This document shows positions 7,944-25,389 of a stretch of DNA of 32,015 nt, piece by piece. Position numbers and translations under genes: made by a program. The stretch covers positions 1 to 32,015 of the forward strand of contig CACJBQ010000008.1 in NCBI GenBank assembly GCA_902591695.1, written 5' to 3'. The stretch is from an uncultured Pelagibacteraceae bacterium (GTDB lineage: Bacteria > Pseudomonadota > Alphaproteobacteria > Pelagibacterales > Pelagibacteraceae). Positions within the stretch are counted from its first letter, which is position 1, and the number at the start of each line of letters is the position of its first letter. Under the pieces are notes generated by a model, which was not told where the DNA came from, searched no databases, and saw only the letters and a program-made list of their open reading frames with translations.

Positions 7944-9425
7944 ATGACAATTAACTTTAAAGCACCAGAGATAAAAGAGCTACAGCCGCGACTACTAGTT
8001 TTAGGAGTTGGTGGAGCTGGCGGAAATGCAATTAACGAAATGATAGAAAATAATCTACAAGGAGTAGAATTTATTGCAGTAAATACTGATGCTCAAGATT
8101 TGAAGCTTAGTAAAGCAAAAACAAGAATTCAAATTGGTTTAAATTTAACAAAAGGTTTAGGGGCCGGTGCAAAACTTGACATAGGACAAGCAGCTGCTGA
8201 TGAATCTTTAAATGAAATTGTAAACACACTTCAAGGTGCAAATATGGTTTTTATTGCAGCCGGTATGGGTGGTGGAACGGGTACTGGTGCTGCCCATGTC
8301 ATTGCAAGAGCCGCTAAAGAATTAAATATATTAACTGTAGGTGTTGTGACTCTTCCATTTTTATATGAAGGTCCCTCTAGAATGAGAAGAGCACAACAAG
8401 GTTTGGAAGAATTAAGAAAACATGTTGATACAATAATTGTTATTCCTAACCAAAATTTATTTAAAATTGCCAACGAGCAAACAACATTTGAAGAATCATT
8501 TAACCTTTCAAATAATGTTTTGATGCATGGTGTTCAAAGTATAACTGATTTGATGGTAAGACCTGGATTAATTAATCTCGATTTTGCTGATGTTGAAACT
8601 GTTATGGCAGCGATGGGAAAAGCTATGATGGGAACAGGTGAAGCTGAGGGAGAAGGTAGAGCTCTCAAAGCAGCAGAGATGGCAATTAGCAATCCATTAA
8701 TAGATGATTACACTTTAAAAGGCGCAAAAGGATTATTAGTAAATATCACTGGCGGCAAAGATCTTAAACTTTTTGAAGTTGATGAGGCTGTTAATAAAGT
8801 AAGAGCCGAAGTTGATCCTGAAGCAGAGTTAATTATCGGCGCAATTACTGATACAGAACTTGATGGAAAAATGAGAGTATCAATTGTTGCTACATCTTTA
8901 GATGGGCAACAGCCAGAATCAAAATCTGTTGTAAATATGGTTCATAGAATTCAAAACCGTAATCCGGGTTACTCTGATTTTTCAAACATGGGATCATCTC
9001 AATCTTTTAATTTTTCAAATACTACAACATCAAATCCAATTACACATGGTGCGAATGCTTTAAAACTTGAAAATGAGATAATCCAAGAACAACAAACTGA
9101 GAGTTCTCAAAATCAGATGATGAGTGAAGAAGTTGTCCAAAATACCAACATGGAAAGCGAGAGTATAGTTCAGGATAGTTCAGTTAATGAAATGGAGAAA
9201 TCTTTTGCTCAAGAAGCTATGGAAACTAACCATGAAGATCATCAAGATATTAACAACGAAGAAGAAACCTCTAATGATTTAAAAGAATTTGGAGTTGACT
9301 CAGATGCACCAGATTTATTTAGTTCAGAATCTGATAATTCAAGCCCTGAAGATTTATTGACTTCAGATGAAGAGAAAGAAGATGATCTTGAGATACCAGC
9401 ATTCTTAAGAAGACAAAAAAATTAA
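7944..9425 (+). CDS. ftsZ: Cell division GTPase FtsZ
   Basis: 493-aa tubulin homologue that polymerises into the Z ring. It has [10 protein letters not shown] at 21-30, the tubulin signature GGGTGTG at 109-115 and the synergy (T7) loop NLDFADV at 211-217. The conserved globular domain ends near residue 325. A long acidic, Gln/Asn/Ser-rich linker of about 150 residues follows, as in alphaproteobacteria, and then the conserved C-terminal peptide [14 protein letters not shown] that binds membrane tethers. Its position is unusual: it lies between mraZ and rsmH, 10 nt after mraZ, and not between ftsA and lpxC. The AGGGGAT Shine-Dalgarno overlapping the mraZ stop suggests translational coupling. 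MraZ should control FtsZ supply directly through the shared operator. Confidence 0.98.
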
Positions 9426-12449: not shown

Positions 12450-15293
12450 ATGCTTCTGGGAAACTACTTTCATAACATAAATAAAAATTACAAAAATGTT
12501 TCTTTTTCAGGAATTTCATTTGACACGAAGAGTGTTAAAAAAAATAATATTTTCTTTGCAATCAAAGGAAATAGTATTGATGGTAATAAATTTATTCCTA
12601 AAGCAATTAAAAAAGGATCTAAAATTATTGTTACTGAAAAAAAAGTAAATCAATTCCAAAATGGAATTTTGTATATTCATACAAATAATGTAAGAAAATT
12701 ATTAGCTGAAACTGCATTTAAAATTTATAATAAAAAACCAAAAAATTTAATTGCAGTTACTGGTACAAATGGAAAATCATCAGTTGCAGATTTTTATTAT
12801 CAAATATTAAAATTAAATAATAAAAAAGTTGCTTCAATTGGCACATTAGGTGTTAAATCAAAAAGTATTAATTTGAATTTATCTAATACCACAATAGATC
12901 CAATCAAGTTGGCTAAAATATTAAGTAATTTAAAAAATCAAAAAATAGAAAATGTAATTATGGAAGCCTCAAGCCATGGTTTAAAGCAAAATAGATTAGA
13001 TGGTTTAAAGTTTAATTCAGGTATATTTACTAATCTATCCCAGGATCATCTTGATTATCATAAAAATATAAAAAACTATTTAAATGCAAAACTTTATTTA
13101 TTTGAAAACCTAATCTCAAAAAGAGGAAATATAATTACTGATCAATTAATACCTGAGTTTAAAAACATAAAAAAAATTGCAATTAATAAAAAATTAAAAT
13201 TGTATGCACTTAATGATGAGAAAAACAATCTAAAGCTTTTATCTCATAATTTTAAAGGAGAGGGTCAATTTCTTAGAATTAAATCAAATAGTTTGATAAG
13301 GGATTTAAATTTAAATTTAATTGGAAAAATACAATTAAAAAATGTTTTGATGGCAATAATTGCAGCAAAATCTAGCGGTATTAGTTTAGATAAAATTTTA
13401 AATACAATTCCAAAATTAAAACCAGTTGCGGGAAGGTTTGAAAAAATTGGTAAAATTAAAAATCAATCAAAAGTAATTCTTGATTATGCTCATACGCCTG
13501 ATGCTTTAAAAACTTGTCTCTTAAATCTTAGAGAACAATTTCCTAATAAAGCAATCACAGTGCTATTCGGTTGTGGTGGAAATAGAGATCAAAATAAAAG
13601 ATCAAAAATGGGTAAAATAGCTAGTGATTTTTCAGACAGTATAATTCTTACAAATGATAACCCTAGATTTGAAAATCCTCAAAAAATACGAGGAGATATA
13701 AAAAAAGGTATTAAAAAAAAAAGAATTACTGAAATTGCTAATAGAGCAATAGCAATAAAACAAGCTATTCATAATTTGAATTCAGGTGATATTCTGTTAG
13801 TTGCTGGAAAAGGTCATGAGAAAACACAAGTTATTGGAAATAAGAAAATTTTCTTTTCTGATAGAAAAATAATTTTAAATACTATTAAGAATAAAAATAA
13901 TAATTTATCAAATAATTTAAAATTAAATGTGGTTAAAGAGGCAGTTAAAATTAAAAAATTATCTCCCTACACATCTTTAAAAACGGCAAGAATTAATTCT
14001 CAAGAAGTTACTAAAAACGATATTTTTTTTGCTATTAGAGGAAAAAAAAATGATGGTAATAAATATGTTGCTCAATCATTCAAGAGAAAAGCATCGTTAG
14101 CTGTAGTAAATAAAATCCAAAATAACTTAAATAAAAATCACCAGATTAAAGTAAAAAATACTTTAAAATTCCTAACAGATATTTCGAAAACTTTTAGAAA
14201 AAGTATTGATACAAATATTATAGCGATCACAGGTAGTTGTGGTAAAACTACACTTAAAGAATTGCTGGGCAATGTATTGAGTAAAATTTCAAAAGTAAGT
14301 ATTTCTCCAAAATCTTATAACAATAAATTTGGAGTTCCTTTGAGTCTTTTTAATTTAAAACAAAATGATGAATTTGGAATTTTAGAAGTTGGAATGGATA
14401 AAAAAGGTGAAATTGATTATTTATCAAAAATAATTGAACCAGATGTTGGAGTAATAACAAATATAAATTATGCACATGCTAAAAATTTTAAAAATATAAA
14501 ACAGATTGCTTTAGCAAAATCTGAAATTATTAACAATATTAAACCTTATGGTTATATTGTATTGAATGCAGATGATAATTTTTTTCAATTGCATAAAAAA
14601 ATTGCTAAAGAAAATAAAATTAAAGTAGTTTCTTTTGGTATTAAAAGTCAGAAAGCAGATATTAAATTAATTAATATAAAGCACTTTGGAAAAAAATTTA
14701 GAATTAATGTTAGATTAAATAATAAAAAAAAGTATTTCACAATATCAAACGATTTTCAAAACAATATATATAATACACTTTCTGCTCTAGCAGTTATTAG
14801 TATTTATAAAAATATATTTAAACTTAATGAAAATATTTTTCTCAATTTTAAAATTCCAGGAGGTAGGGGAGACCATTCTGTAGTAAAAATTAATAATAAA
14901 AAAATTAATTTAATTGATCAAAGTTATAATTCAAATCCTTTATCATTAAAATCATCAATAAAAAATTTTGATAAAATAAACTCAAAAAAATCAAATAAAT
15001 ATTTACTAATTGGTGACATGTTAGAGCTCGGTAGTCATTCTAAAAAACTTCATAAATCTATTGCTCCAATAATTAATCAAACCAAGATAGATAAGGTATT
15101 TGTGAAGGGTAAAATGGCATCTATAATATTTGAAAGTATCTCAAAAGCTAAAAAAGGCCGGATTTTATTTAACAAATCTCAAATTATTGAATTGATCAGA
15201 AAAGATTTAAACAATAATGATTATTTAATGATTAAAGCCTCACTTGCGACAGGATTCAACGACATAGTAAAAGACCTGAAAGGATTAAATTAA
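12450..15293 (+). CDS. murEF: Fused MurE-MurF (UDP-MurNAc-tripeptide synthetase / D-Ala-D-Ala ligase)
   Basis: One uninterrupted 947-aa reading frame carrying two Mur ligases. Residues 1-480 are MurE: P-loop TGTNGKSS at 104-111, the lysine expected to be carbamylated at K214 (YLNAKLYLF), and DNPR at 403-406, the motif associated with meso-diaminopimelate specificity. Residues about 495-947 are MurF: an N-terminal FFAIRGKKNDGNKY-type uridine-binding domain, P-loop TGSCGKTT at 594-601, and DQSYNSNPLSLKSSI near 828. MurE adds meso-DAP to UDP-MurNAc-L-Ala-D-Glu and MurF then adds D-Ala-D-Ala, so consecutive steps are joined. The linker (about 481-494) is Asn/Lys-rich. No internal stop or obvious re-initiation site is seen at the junction. 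Confidence 0.96.
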   Translation: MLLGNYFHNINKNYKNVSFSGISFDTKSVKKNNIFFAIKGNSIDGNKFIPKAIKKGSKIIVTEKKVNQFQNGILYIHTNNVRKLLAETAFKIYNKKPKNLIAVTGTNGKSSVADFYYQILKLNNKKVASIGTLGVKSKSINLNLSNTTIDPIKLAKILSNLKNQKIENVIMEASSHGLKQNRLDGLKFNSGIFTNLSQDHLDYHKNIKNYLNAKLYLFENLISKRGNIITDQLIPEFKNIKKIAINKKLKLYALNDEKNNLKLLSHNFKGEGQFLRIKSNSLIRDLNLNLIGKIQLKNVLMAIIAAKSSGISLDKILNTIPKLKPVAGRFEKIGKIKNQSKVILDYAHTPDALKTCLLNLREQFPNKAITVLFGCGGNRDQNKRSKMGKIASDFSDSIILTNDNPRFENPQKIRGDIKKGIKKKRITEIANRAIAIKQAIHNLNSGDILLVAGKGHEKTQVIGNKKIFFSDRKIILNTIKNKNNNLSNNLKLNVVKEAVKIKKLSPYTSLKTARINSQEVTKNDIFFAIRGKKNDGNKYVAQSFKRKASLAVVNKIQNNLNKNHQIKVKNTLKFLTDISKTFRKSIDTNIIAITGSCGKTTLKELLGNVLSKISKVSISPKSYNNKFGVPLSLFNLKQNDEFGILEVGMDKKGEIDYLSKIIEPDVGVITNINYAHAKNFKNIKQIALAKSEIINNIKPYGYIVLNADDNFFQLHKKIAKENKIKVVSFGIKSQKADIKLINIKHFGKKFRINVRLNNKKKYFTISNDFQNNIYNTLSALAVISIYKNIFKLNENIFLNFKIPGGRGDHSVVKINNKKINLIDQSYNSNPLSLKSSIKNFDKINSKKSNKYLLIGDMLELGSHSKKLHKSIAPIINQTKIDKVFVKGKMASIIFESISKAKKGRILFNKSQIIELIRKDLNNNDYLMIKASLATGFNDIVKDLKGLN

Positions 15294-22143: not shown

Positions 22144-23058
22144 TTGAAAAAAAAAATATTAATAATATCAGGTGGGATATCGAAAGAGAGACTAATCAGT
22201 CTTGATACAGGGCAACAGGTTGCTAATGAGCTTAAAAAAAATGGTTACAGAGTTAAAATCACTGAACCGGATAATAATTTAAAAAAAAATATTAAATTTT
22301 TTAAACCAAATGTAATTTTTAATGCTTTGCATGGCCAATTTGGTGAGGATGGTTATATTCAAACTATTTTAGAGAGGTTTAAAATTCCTTATACGCATTC
22401 AGGTGTAATTGCATCGTCTATTGCAATGGACAAAGAAATTTCAAAAAAGATATTTATTAAAAATAAAATAAATACACCAAAATTTTTTACTTATTCTTAC
22501 GATGTTAAAAATGAAGATTTAATAAAAAAAATAAAAAAAAAATTAAGATTTCCAGTAGTAGCAAAGCCTTTAAATGAGGGTTCTAGTGTTAACGTATATA
22601 TTTGTAATGAAAAAAATATAATTAAAATTCTTAATTCAATAAAACAATATAAAAAGGTTATGATTGAAGAATTTATTGGTGGTAGGGAAATACAAGTTGC
22701 AATAATGGGAAATAAAAAACTCGGAGCAATAGAACTAAAACCAAAAAGAAAATTTTATGATTATCAAGCAAAATATAATTCCAGTGCGAAAACAAAACAT
22801 ATAATTCCAGTAAATTTACCCAAAGGTAAAATGGATATAGTTATGAATATGGCATATAAAGCTCATAATGTGATTGGTTGTCAGGGCGTCACAAGATCTG
22901 ATTTTAAATTTTTTAATAATAAATTTTATCTTCTAGAAATAAATACTCAACCAGGTATGACTAAACTTTCACTTGTGCCTGAAATTGCAGCATATAGAAA
23001 TATTAGTTTTTTAGAGTTAATCGAGTGGATAATGCATGATGCATCAAAGAAAAAGTAA
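22144..23058 (+). CDS. ddl: D-alanine--D-alanine ligase
   Basis: 304-aa ATP-grasp ligase producing the D-Ala-D-Ala used by MurF. SGGISKERLISLDTGQQV at 9-26 is the N-terminal motif with the catalytic Glu. Also visible are FNALHGQFGEDGYIQTILE near 59, YTHSGVIASSIAMDK near 83, FPVVAKPLNEGSSVNVYI near 134 and the C-terminal LLEINTQPGMTKLSLVPEIA near 259. The start is TTG 22144, one base after the murB stop; no in-frame ATG precedes the conserved SGG motif. It overlaps ftsQ by 23 nt at its 3' end. Confidence 0.97.
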   Translation: MKKKILIISGGISKERLISLDTGQQVANELKKNGYRVKITEPDNNLKKNIKFFKPNVIFNALHGQFGEDGYIQTILERFKIPYTHSGVIASSIAMDKEISKKIFIKNKINTPKFFTYSYDVKNEDLIKKIKKKLRFPVVAKPLNEGSSVNVYICNEKNIIKILNSIKQYKKVMIEEFIGGREIQVAIMGNKKLGAIELKPKRKFYDYQAKYNSSAKTKHIIPVNLPKGKMDIVMNMAYKAHNVIGCQGVTRSDFKFFNNKFYLLEINTQPGMTKLSLVPEIAAYRNISFLELIEWIMHDASKKK

Positions 23059-23710
23059 AAAGTTATTAATTTATTTTTTTTTGTTAATAATAATAAGTTC
23101 AACAAATAATATTTCACTAAGAAATTTAGAATTTCAAAAAGTTAGAAATATTGAAGTTTCAGGATTAGGCGAAATGGAAAATAAACTTGTAATAGATCAA
23201 ATAAAAAATCTTAACTTAAGTAATATTTTTTTTATTAATAAAGTAGAAATTAATAATTTAATAAGTTCAAATCCACTAATTGAAAAATATCAAATTTTTA
23301 AAAATTATCCATCAGCTATAAAAATTATGATTAAAAAAACAAATTTTATAGCCAAAATAAATCATAATAACGAAATATTTGTAATTGGTTCAAATGGCAA
23401 ATTAATACCTAATAATTTGCAAGCATCTGATTTGCCCTATATTTTTGGCAAACCAGAAATTAAAGAATTATTAAAATTTAAACAAATTGTAGATCAATCT
23501 AAATTTTCATTCGATGAAGTCGACAGTTTATATTTTTTTCCATCCAAAAGATGGGATATCAAATTAAAAAATAATATTTTATTAAAATTACCTAATAACT
23601 TAACACAAGAACACTTAAATAATTTATATCAATTTTTAGAAATACATAATGAAGAAAATTTAACTACTGTCGATGCAAGATTAGAAAATAAGATTATTTT
23701 AAATGAATAA
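23036..23710 (+). CDS. ftsQ: Cell division protein FtsQ
   Basis: 224-aa bitopic membrane protein, shorter than E. coli FtsQ (276). A basic start (HQRKSKK) and one membrane helix at about 9-21 are followed by a POTRA-like domain (RNIEVSGLGEMENKLVIDQI, about 37-56). The FtsQ beta domain follows, with YPSAIKIMIKKTNFIAKI near 90, GSNGKLIP near 122 and a closing VDARLENKIILNE. The family is identified by POTRA plus position after ddl, as in alphaproteobacteria. It links FtsL/FtsB to the early division proteins. The start ATG overlaps ddl by 23 nt; the end overlaps the FtsA-like gene by 8 nt. Confidence 0.9.
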   Translation: MMHQRKSKKLLIYFFLLIIISSTNNISLRNLEFQKVRNIEVSGLGEMENKLVIDQIKNLNLSNIFFINKVEINNLISSNPLIEKYQIFKNYPSAIKIMIKKTNFIAKINHNNEIFVIGSNGKLIPNNLQASDLPYIFGKPEIKELLKFKQIVDQSKFSFDEVDSLYFFPSKRWDIKLKNNILLKLPNNLTQEHLNNLYQFLEIHNEENLTTVDARLENKIILNE

Positions 23711-24404
23711 AGAAAATGATTTACAACATTACCTAAGCATTTCGCCGAACAAATTTGGTTTATATCTGTTTGATACAAAAAGTTTAAAAAATTTATATAA
23801 GGAAGAAATAACTTTTAATCGTGATAGAGATTTTTTTAATTATGATCTCTTAAAAAAATTTCTTGATGACAATGTGTTTAAAATTGAGAAATTAAATGGA
23901 AAATTTGTTGAAAATATTTTTTTTATTTTTGAAGATAAAAAAATTTTTAATTTAGAAATGGGAATTAAAAAAAAAAATTATAATACCTCACTAAAAAAAG
24001 AATACCTACAAAATTTGCTTACAGAGGCAAAAGATTTATTTAGAGAAAACTATCCCAATCAAGAAATTATGCATATGATAATTAATAAATATTTTATTAA
24101 TGATAAAAGCTATTTATCATACCAAGAAAATTTAAGTGGTGGTAATGTCGCTTTACAAATTCAATTTAAATCTATTTCAAGTAGTATTATTTATGATCTA
24201 AATAGGATTTTGGAAAACTATCAAATTAAAATCACAAAATATATTGATGGTACTTATGTAAAAAAATTTTTTGGTAATGAAGTGGAGTTACCTGAGAAGG
24301 CCCATCGGATTCTAAATGGCTATAATGAGAATGAGGTTACTTTTGTACCAAAAAACCCAAAAAAATTACCTTTTTTTGAAAAATTTTTTCAACTATTTAG
24401 TTAA
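23703..24404 (+). CDS. Truncated FtsA-like protein: 1C (SHS2) domain plus amphipathic tail
   Basis: 233 aa in the ftsA position (ftsQ upstream, lpxC downstream). FtsA is normally about 400-430 aa. Residues about 15-65 resemble the first strands of domain 1A, but the ATP phosphate loop is degenerate (FGLYLFDTKSLKNL with no DxGT). Residues about 68-180 fit domain 1C by eye: LLTEAKDLF, then MHMIINKYFINDKSYL, NLSGGNVALQIQF and SSSIIYDLNRILENYQIKI. These line up with E. coli VVHTAKSV, LHVIPQEYAID, GLSGVRMQAKVHL and DMAKNIVKAVERCGLKV. After IDGTYVKKFF the actin-like domains 2A/2B and the rest of 1A are missing. The last residues (NPKKLPFFEKFFQLFS) form a basic-aromatic amphipathic segment like the FtsA membrane-targeting helix. 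No frameshift or remnant is seen: only 64 nt separate it from lpxC. Function is inferred. Confidence 0.7.
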   Translation: MNKENDLQHYLSISPNKFGLYLFDTKSLKNLYKEEITFNRDRDFFNYDLLKKFLDDNVFKIEKLNGKFVENIFFIFEDKKIFNLEMGIKKKNYNTSLKKEYLQNLLTEAKDLFRENYPNQEIMHMIINKYFINDKSYLSYQENLSGGNVALQIQFKSISSSIIYDLNRILENYQIKITKYIDGTYVKKFFGNEVELPEKAHRILNGYNENEVTFVPKNPKKLPFFEKFFQLFS

Positions 24405-24437
24405 AATTGTTTTTTACCGTAACAATTGTTGTTTTTT
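24405..24437 (+). terminator. Weak hairpin with T-tract before lpxC
   Basis: AATTGTT at 24405-24411 pairs with AACAATT at 24421-24427 across a 9-nt loop, followed by GTTGTTTTTT ending at 24437. The stem has one G-C pair. AACAATTGTT at 24421-24430 is itself a palindrome and could be a protein site instead. It lies in the 64-nt gap between the FtsA-like gene and lpxC, one of the larger gaps in the operon, so it may attenuate or separate transcription. Confidence 0.35.
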
Positions 24438-24468: not shown

Positions 24469-25389
24469 GTGTCTTATCTAACTCAAAAAACAATAAAGAA
24501 AAACGTTACTTTTAGTGGTGTAGCATTACATAGTGGAGTTAATGTAAATGTAGTAATTAAACCAGCTGATCCAAATTTTGGTATTATTTTTAAAAGAACA
24601 GATTTAAAAGATAATAATTTAGTTTACCCAAATTTTGCAAATGTTTCAAACACATCTTTAAACACAACAATAGAAAATGAGTTTGGTGCAAAAGTTTCAA
24701 CAATTGAACATTTGATGGGAGCATTATTTGGATTAGGAATAGATAATGCTTTAATAGAAATAGACAATGAGGAAGTTCCAATTTTAGATGGTTCAGCCAA
24801 AGTTTTCATAGAAAAAATTATCTCTGCTGGTGTTGTAGTTAGCAATTCACCAATAAAAATAATTAAAATTAATAAAGAAATTACTTTTTCAGATGGTGAG
24901 AGATACATATCTATTAAGCCTTCCACGTTAAGCTTAGAAATAGACTTTGAATTAAAATATGAAAACCAAATTATTGGTAATCAAAGAAACAAATATAAAA
25001 TTTATGAGGATGACCTATCTGATGTTTATAATTCGAGAACCTATTGTTTGTTTGAAGATATCGAAAAAATAAAAAGAAATGGCTTAGCCAAAGGTGGAAG
25101 TTTAGAAAATGCTATCGTTGTAAATGATAAAGAAATTTTAAATCCAGAGGGATTGAGGAATGAAAAAGAATTTGTGAATCATAAAATATTAGATTGTATT
25201 GGAGATTTATATACCTCTGGTTATAGAATTGTAGCTAGTGTTACTTGTTCACAAGGTGGTCATTATTTGACTAATCAACTTTTAAGAAAAGTGTTCCAAA
25301 ATAAAGAGAATTTTTCTATCCTTGAAATTAAAGAAAAAAATCTCCCACATACCTTAATAAATAAAAATATTCTTAGATCGATAGCATAG
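24469..25389 (+). CDS. lpxC: UDP-3-O-acyl-N-acetylglucosamine deacetylase LpxC
   Basis: 306-aa zinc deacetylase, the committed step of lipid A synthesis, matching the family length (about 305). Zn ligands and neighbours are visible: H81 in TIEHLMGAL, H238 and D242 in VNHKILDCIGDLY, and the catalytic H265 in SQGGHYLTNQ. N-terminal QKTIKKNVTFSGVALHSG is characteristic. The start is GTG 24469; an ATG two bases upstream is out of frame and stops at once. There is no clear Shine-Dalgarno. Its presence shows that the organism makes lipid A and explains the outer-membrane genes nearby. Confidence 0.98.
   Translation: MSYLTQKTIKKNVTFSGVALHSGVNVNVVIKPADPNFGIIFKRTDLKDNNLVYPNFANVSNTSLNTTIENEFGAKVSTIEHLMGALFGLGIDNALIEIDNEEVPILDGSAKVFIEKIISAGVVVSNSPIKIIKINKEITFSDGERYISIKPSTLSLEIDFELKYENQIIGNQRNKYKIYEDDLSDVYNSRTYCLFEDIEKIKRNGLAKGGSLENAIVVNDKEILNPEGLRNEKEFVNHKILDCIGDLYTSGYRIVASVTCSQGGHYLTNQLLRKVFQNKENFSILEIKEKNLPHTLINKNILRSIA

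Follow-up and report, generated by a model that had tools for sequence, protein, structure and literature searches.

The 233-aa protein encoded between ftsQ and lpxC in the window (the whole stretch of 32,015 nucleotides of Pelagibacteraceae, or SAR11, DNA that was analysed) descends from the division protein FtsA. The whole contiguous domain 2 (2A and 2B) has been excised from it, leaving a folded half made of domains 1A and 1C together with a C-terminal helix. At least 150 of 399 genomes sampled from the genus carry this form, and in the main clade of reduced genes it is under purifying selection. A wider picture, in which FtsA was repeatedly cut to its 1A-1C half at the same boundary, cells divide with an FtsA that uses neither ATP nor filaments and no longer holds FtsZ, and the conserved FtsZ tail is held by an undescribed anchor, is put forward here tentatively, as a conjecture that we hold to be somewhat more doubtful than sound.

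The reduced gene (23703..24404, + strand; recognised from its open reading frame, profile searches and a structural model as domain 1A, domain 1C and a C-terminal tail without domain 2) overlaps ftsQ (23036..23710, + strand; Pfam POTRA_1 and FtsQ_DivIB_C above cut-off) by 8 nt; downstream of it lies lpxC (24469..25389, + strand; TIGR00325, 280.9 bits versus a cut-off of 187.25). This confirms the position, length and overlap that an earlier note on this DNA had given for the gene. Upstream of it the order is mraZ, ftsZ, rsmH, ftsL, ftsI, a murE-murF fusion, mraY, murD, ftsW, murG, murC, murB, ddl, and ftsQ. Of these window frames and lpxC, NCBIfam cut-offs are passed by mraZ, rsmH, murE, murF, mraY, ddl, and lpxC; below their cut-offs, ftsW and murG have NCBIfam matches and the ftsI frame has matches to penicillin-binding protein families, and four frames are taken to be ftsL, murD, murC, and murB from gene order. 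A 493-aa ftsZ (7944..9425, + strand) is above cut-off and encodes its C-terminal peptide at 9384-9422. Rather than following ftsA, it is flanked by mraZ and rsmH some 14 kb upstream of that gene, and the same placement before rsmH was seen in 36 of the 40 family loci fetched, these being the loci that reach that spot. Additionally, murE and murF form one 947-aa frame (12450-15293) that matches both TIGR01085 and TIGR01143 above cut-off. An ftsA frame lies between ddl and lpxC in all 41 loci checked, 20 of them full-length and 21 reduced.

Descent from FtsA and the parts kept

When the 233-aa protein was searched as a single sequence, TIGR01174 (FtsA) was its sole NCBIfam match at E ≤10 (E 0.0017, 17.5 bits, protein residues 60-181 against profile positions 59-178). 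This score is below the curated score of 175.85 bits, which none of the 399 genus genomes passes, indicating that the cut-off cannot tell short from long forms here. Pfam gave no FtsA match for the single sequence, and a single-sequence search of the PDB returned unrelated weak matches and nothing else. Single-sequence searches alone are thus insufficient to show descent from FtsA, and profile and fold searches are needed. A profile of 74 sequences of the reduced family found three PDB sequences at E ≤10, all of them FtsA (E 1.1e-4 to 0.0047), and aligned to full-length FtsA of the genus over residues 1-189 with a probability of 100 and an E of 4e-39. An AlphaFold model built with the family alignment as input reached a pLDDT of 87 and a pTM of 0.81. 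The top 19 rows of a Foldseek search of the PDB with this model were FtsA (best E 2.4e-11), followed by PilM and GspL/EpsL. With VIA-align, model residues 4-206 were superposed on residues 6-388 of E. coli FtsA (7q6d), with 201 residues aligned, a Z of 12.5 and an rmsd of 3.6; the alignment spans FtsA 6-388, and both ends of domain 1A are therefore covered, though the protein is about 150 residues shorter. As a control, a full-length relative (L029, 371 aa) aligned 335 residues to 7q6f_A with a Z of 30.4. Chance similarity to FtsA is ruled out, as FtsA ranks first in both the profile and the fold searches. The by-eye pairing of the protein with domain 1C in the earlier note is reproduced by the alignment of the 74-sequence profile to PDB FtsA, and a structural match, which that note had made decisive, is present in the 19 top Foldseek rows.

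The N-terminal part of domain 1A (residues 6-79; 23718..23939, + strand) comprises model strands 7-14, 17-24, and 29-37, a helix at 47-65 and a strand at 71-76, and is followed by domain 1C (23940..24176, + strand) with a strand at 82-91, a helix at 99-116, and strands at 120-132 and 148-159; the boundaries of these two parts were placed by eye. The middle part of domain 1A (residues 160-190; 24180..24272, + strand; helix 160-171, strand 176-182, helix 183-189) stops where domain 2 starts in full-length relatives. At the junction (24270..24287, + strand), the 138-159 aa of domain 2 that are present in 31 full-length genus members are absent. Beyond it lies the last helix of domain 1A (residues 196-204; 24288..24314, + strand), which closes the alignment to solved FtsAs on its C-terminal side and has a sequence counterpart in full-length tails. 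The reduced proteins thus track full-length ones up to the helix of Y185, pass over the stretch with the phosphate-2 region, domain 2B and the adenosine loop, and pick up again with the last 1A helix and the tail. Next is a conserved G-x-N-x-x-E-V segment (24318..24341, + strand) in which E211 is invariant in 74 sequences, and which the closest full-length FtsAs likewise carry in their tails. The protein ends in an aromatic helix (residues 223-233; 24369..24401, + strand) that is predicted, from conservation and the model, to be membrane-targeting. Among the 74 sequences F229 is invariant and F225 and F232 occur in at least 90%. The model places a helix at 224-232 with low confidence, and the hydrophobic moment of the tail is 0.57, ranking about 10th of 223 windows, and is not the maximum of the protein. 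The tails of the two forms are nearly alike, reading GYNENEVTFVPKNPKKLPFFEKFFQLFS in the window protein versus GLNKQEVVIVPKKQIKQGFFEKLFHFFS in a full-length FtsA (L012).

The ATP motifs have been lost in two ways: the phosphate-2 and adenosine regions are gone with domain 2, and the D and G of phosphate-1, in the N-terminal part of domain 1A, are replaced in the window protein by S12 and S14. The corresponding D11 and G13 are invariant in full-length genus members (35 of 35). In the reduced rows, the D11 position is most often occupied by S, F, Y, I, or L (these five cover 75 of 89 rows) and the G13 position by S, N, T, E, or D (83 of 89 rows). E62 and H124 are kept in all 89 reduced rows, and in 35 of 35 and 34 of 35 full-length rows, respectively. 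The earlier note had described the protein as domain 1C and a tail without the actin core; 1C/SHS2 is indeed retained, but so is domain 1A, from its first strand to its last helix. Its further statement that the ATP-binding loops and 2B are missing agrees with the absent domain 2 and the replaced phosphate-1 residues, and the basic-aromatic, FtsA-like tail that it proposed appears, judged by sequence, to be retained as an aromatic tail. In one full-length FtsA (L247, genome G419, on a contig of 1,308,759 bases) the phosphate-2 region reads DIA versus DIG in its close relative L250, a possible sign, at the level of sequence, of decay of the ATP site in a full-length sister group.

Distribution, selection and origin of the reduced gene

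Among 399 genus genomes sampled, at least 150 carry the reduced form and 96 have an FtsA frame that reaches domain 2, and no genome is in both lists. The count of at least 150 refers to matches listed with E ≤1.9e-39, none in a frame longer than 246 aa; some are cut by contig ends and one (in G156) has internal stops. Among the remaining genomes there is either no match or a weaker one beyond those listed. Of the 96 frames reaching domain 2, 93 are 370-406 aa long, those of G308, G208, and G319 are shorter (193, 319, and 337 aa), and that of G010 has one internal stop. Among the 57 genomes that are at least 90% complete, 34 have the reduced form (33 listed and G012) and 18 the full-length form (17 and G053); of the remaining 5, G094, G096, G123, and G184 lack an LpxC match and G134 has lpxC at a contig end. 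Outside the genus, FtsA was found in all 15 other genomes of the same family, in two of which the frame is short (320 and 216 aa) and lies near a contig end, and in at least 43 of 53 genomes of the sister family, the other 10 having none among the matches listed. A total of 80 named loci were found through LpxC in a scan seeded from reduced-type genomes and thus biased toward the reduced type; 54 have a complete reduced gene in a frame of 220-244 aa, in 20 the contig stops within the gene, and 6 have no match. The earlier note took full-length ftsA at this locus in close relatives as a sign of a strain-specific deletion. Such genes do exist (96 of 399), but the short form occurs in at least 150 of 399 genomes and is therefore not a strain-specific deletion.

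Contig ends fall inside reduced ftsA or just after it (≤770 bases before lpxC) in 26 named single-cell loci (from L078-L153) out of 80, a number that the ranking of short loci may inflate; the region corresponds to about 23820-24406 in the window. In those 80 loci, no contig ends within ftsQ, and 2 end in the 1.5 kb that follow. Positions of about 23880-24000 in the window are 88% A+T with a run of 11 A, yet ftsQ is more A+T-rich overall.

The ratio dN/dS of reduced genes has a median of 0.19 and a range of 0.14-0.33 (74 pairs with dS >0.1, Nei-Gojobori), against a median of 0.175 for 17 pairs of full-length genes. The 76 reduced pairs with unsaturated synonymous change come from 50 genes of the main clade, and none includes the eight genes assigned to smaller reduced clades; three pairs from those clades gave ratios of about 0.14, 0.32, and 0.46, near saturation. 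Purifying selection thus acts on the reduced gene in the main clade, in line with the suggestion of the earlier note that this is a working reduced protein. That the gene is instead a decaying ftsA pseudogene could be argued from two genomes, G012 (a single contig of 1,343,202 bases), in which the reduced gene is split over two frames, and G156, with 9 stops within the matched stretch. The dN/dS values of the 74 main-clade pairs lead to rejection of this reading for the main clade, and the constant length (of 89 distinct complete reduced genes, 80 encode 232-235 aa), the invariant residues and the kept tail further make it highly improbable. The split in G012 (L014, 1443-2142) consists of two overlapping frames near homopolymer runs and may reflect a sequencing error, slippage or true damage. 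Still less credible is a split FtsA with domain 2 encoded elsewhere in the genome. A domain-2 profile of 16 genus sequences, which found both of two full-length controls (E 6.8e-44 and 6.7e-36), gave nothing at E ≤10 in 16 of 17 reduced-type genomes, among them five single-contig assemblies (G012, G098, G401, G314, and G416). The single weak place, in G009 (E 0.16 and 7.5), lies in a 654-aa frame that is probably DnaK, and gene splitting is rejected by this search. Moreover, the window's own genome, in an assembly that is 68% complete, yielded no second FtsA; in this assembly and in the domain-2 search of the 17 reduced-type genomes, the complete ftsA elsewhere that would have spoken against the earlier note did not appear.

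Repeated excision at one domain boundary is favoured over a single origin, although it is not proved. A tree of 11 flanking genes (41 loci, 4,660 columns, 37 of 38 inner branches at ≥95) needs 4 changes to account for the reduced form, at least 3 of them forced, and rejects a single reduced clade with a p of 1.7e-59 (39 rows, two poorly filled rows having been dropped). A smaller Ddl and LpxC tree (110 rows) needs 2 changes, 1 of them forced. The competing possibility is a single loss of domain 2, after which the short allele displaced the full-length ftsA of other lineages. This is consistent with the position of the junction, which by eye differs by only a few residues between clades, and with the tree of domain 1: a single reduced clade is not rejected by it (p 0.41), 18 of the 21 reduced rows, among them that of G423, form one group in it at 94/93, and placing the main reduced clade with its sisters from the flanking-gene tree is rejected (p 1.7e-6). 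The domain-1 test did not reject a third arrangement, in which clade I is taken out of the flanking-tree clade (p 0.11). In a tree of domain 1A alone, a branch with support of 87/83 keeps the 21 reduced rows together, 1A and 1C alone each reject the flanking grouping (p 0.027 and 0.012, respectively), and the FtsQ tree does not reject one reduced clade (p 0.22). Against a single loss, in addition to the flanking genes, stands domain 1C, a part far from domain 2 in FtsA, which on its own needs 4 changes and rejects one reduced clade (p 0.0035). The clearest case is G423, whose reduced gene most resembles the full-length one of G041, its sister in the flanking tree (42% in domain 1 and 80% in the tail, versus 34% in domain 1 to the best reduced gene); a domain-1 tree in which this pair is kept together is not rejected (p 0.17). 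Domain 1A contacts domain 2 and ATP in FtsA, such that their shared loss could make unrelated short forms look alike. The tests were picked after the trees were known and their p-values are thus descriptive. On this evidence, one loss followed by gene replacement is considered rather unlikely, and repeated excision is the preferred reading.

A putative membrane adaptor and the anchoring of FtsZ

In FtsA, the site for the C-terminal peptide of FtsZ is domain 2B. Without domain 2, the short protein would not close on ATP, would form no longitudinal 2A-2B filament contacts and would offer no 2B site for the FtsZ tail. According to one published account, the cytoplasmic tail of FtsN binds the IA-IC cleft of FtsA, protofilaments form through IIA-IIB longitudinal contacts, and the double filament is joined through IC-IC lateral contacts (PMC7613929). 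A second source describes a C-terminal helix of FtsA that binds the membrane and binding of FtsA to the C-terminal peptide of FtsZ (PMC5832921). Set against the contacts mapped in solved FtsAs, the short form still has the FtsN-type cleft, the lateral contact and the tail helix; ATP closure, the longitudinal contacts and the FtsZ site are gone. We infer, with somewhat better than even confidence, that the reduced protein is an ATP-independent, non-polymerising membrane adaptor that keeps the 1A-1C cleft, with FtsZ held by another partner. In the simplest reading, the short form would work as a constitutive adaptor in which the 1A-1C cleft and 1C-1C contacts link late division proteins to the membrane, and FtsZ, with its unchanged C-terminal peptide, would be anchored by a partner other than short FtsA.

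Loss of the FtsZ tail as a change accompanying the loss of domain 2 is rejected, since the C-terminal peptide, ten residues followed by N or H, is conserved in all 25 genus loci (13 reduced and 12 full-length) obtained from a search of 34 genomes, three of which had no FtsZ match and one of which (G008) had a match left out of the loci. Candidate replacement anchors were sought in 26 genomes. SepF was above cut-off in none, with weak matches in 7 (E 0.067-0.091), and FtsX_ECD was likewise above cut-off in none, with 2 weak matches, in a test that is insensitive in that its control also missed Caulobacter. With sub-threshold matches at best, neither SepF nor FtsX was accepted as a replacement anchor. 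No FtsN was recognised among 18 SPOR domain matches in 17 of the 26 genomes, with 8 genomes above cut-off. Of these 18 frames, 15 belong to one lipoprotein-like family and the other three are L295, L299, and L301. Members of the family are about 250-285 aa long, with a lipoprotein-like start and a C-terminal SPOR match, and by eye are not FtsN by layout. The family (L284-L294, L296-L298, and L300) occurs in 14 of the 23 genus genomes examined and in G454, and matched no NCBIfam family at E 1e-5.

An unchanged FtsZ peptide fits equally well a reduced protein that binds FtsZ by a new site. Such a protein would still tether FtsZ, without ATP or filaments, through domain 1A, domain 1C or the G-x-N-x-x-E-V segment, and with no FtsN recognised and no other FtsZ anchor found, an FtsZ site on the short protein is a serious rival. 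It gains from the persistence of the peptide in 13 of 13 reduced-type genus loci examined, from the lack of a SepF above cut-off in 26 genomes and from the invariance of E211 in 74 sequences despite its position outside the well-modelled fold. The pre-tail segment, however, also occurs in the closest full-length FtsAs, alongside domain 2, and hence did not arise to replace 2B. In addition, the FtsZ peptide has other partners in other bacteria (PMC5832921). A new FtsZ site is accordingly regarded as a possible but not a probable explanation, and the adaptor reading, with FtsZ held elsewhere, is retained.

Comparison with known systems

Among the matches listed in a literature search, judged by titles and abstract openings, no paper on a shortened FtsA or on the FtsA of SAR11 was found. 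Models of FtsA function are built on filaments that depend on ATP, tether FtsZ and respond to FtsN. In the reduced protein, evolution has apparently removed the half responsible for ATP, filaments and FtsZ binding and has kept the half that binds FtsN in other bacteria. The functions of FtsA would thereby be cleanly separated, and the occurrence of short- and long-form species within one genus allows them to be compared, making testable the long debate on whether polymerisation or partner binding is the essential activity of FtsA. The loss of domain 2 also raises the question of what anchors the Z-ring in short-form SAR11 cells. If true, this reading would apply to much of a bacterial group that ranks among the most abundant in the ocean.

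The closest known system is FtsA itself (PDB 1E4F, 4A2B, 7Q6D, 7Q6F, and 7Q6I), with which the reduced protein shares the slot after ftsQ, domain 1A, domain 1C, which in both stands in place of actin 1B, and the aromatic C-terminal helix, and which it matches by both profile and fold. It differs in lacking 2A and 2B, in its changed phosphate-1 residues and in its length, 233 aa versus 370-420 aa for most full-length relatives listed. PilM of the type IV pilus (2YCH and 5EOU) is also a fold match (VIA Z up to 10.2), and its IA-IC cleft is bound by PilN (PMC7613929). Unlike the reduced protein, PilM is a two-domain protein that has been solved with bound ATP or ADP. The next fold match after FtsA is the cytoplasmic domain of GspL/EpsL from type II secretion (4PHT, 1YF5, and 1W97; VIA Z 10.4-10.8), which belongs to a different machine and whose likeness to the reduced protein, as modelled, appears to be one of fold. 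GspL/EpsL is anchored by a transmembrane segment and is an actin-fold adaptor rather than a working ATPase, providing a precedent for a stripped actin fold.
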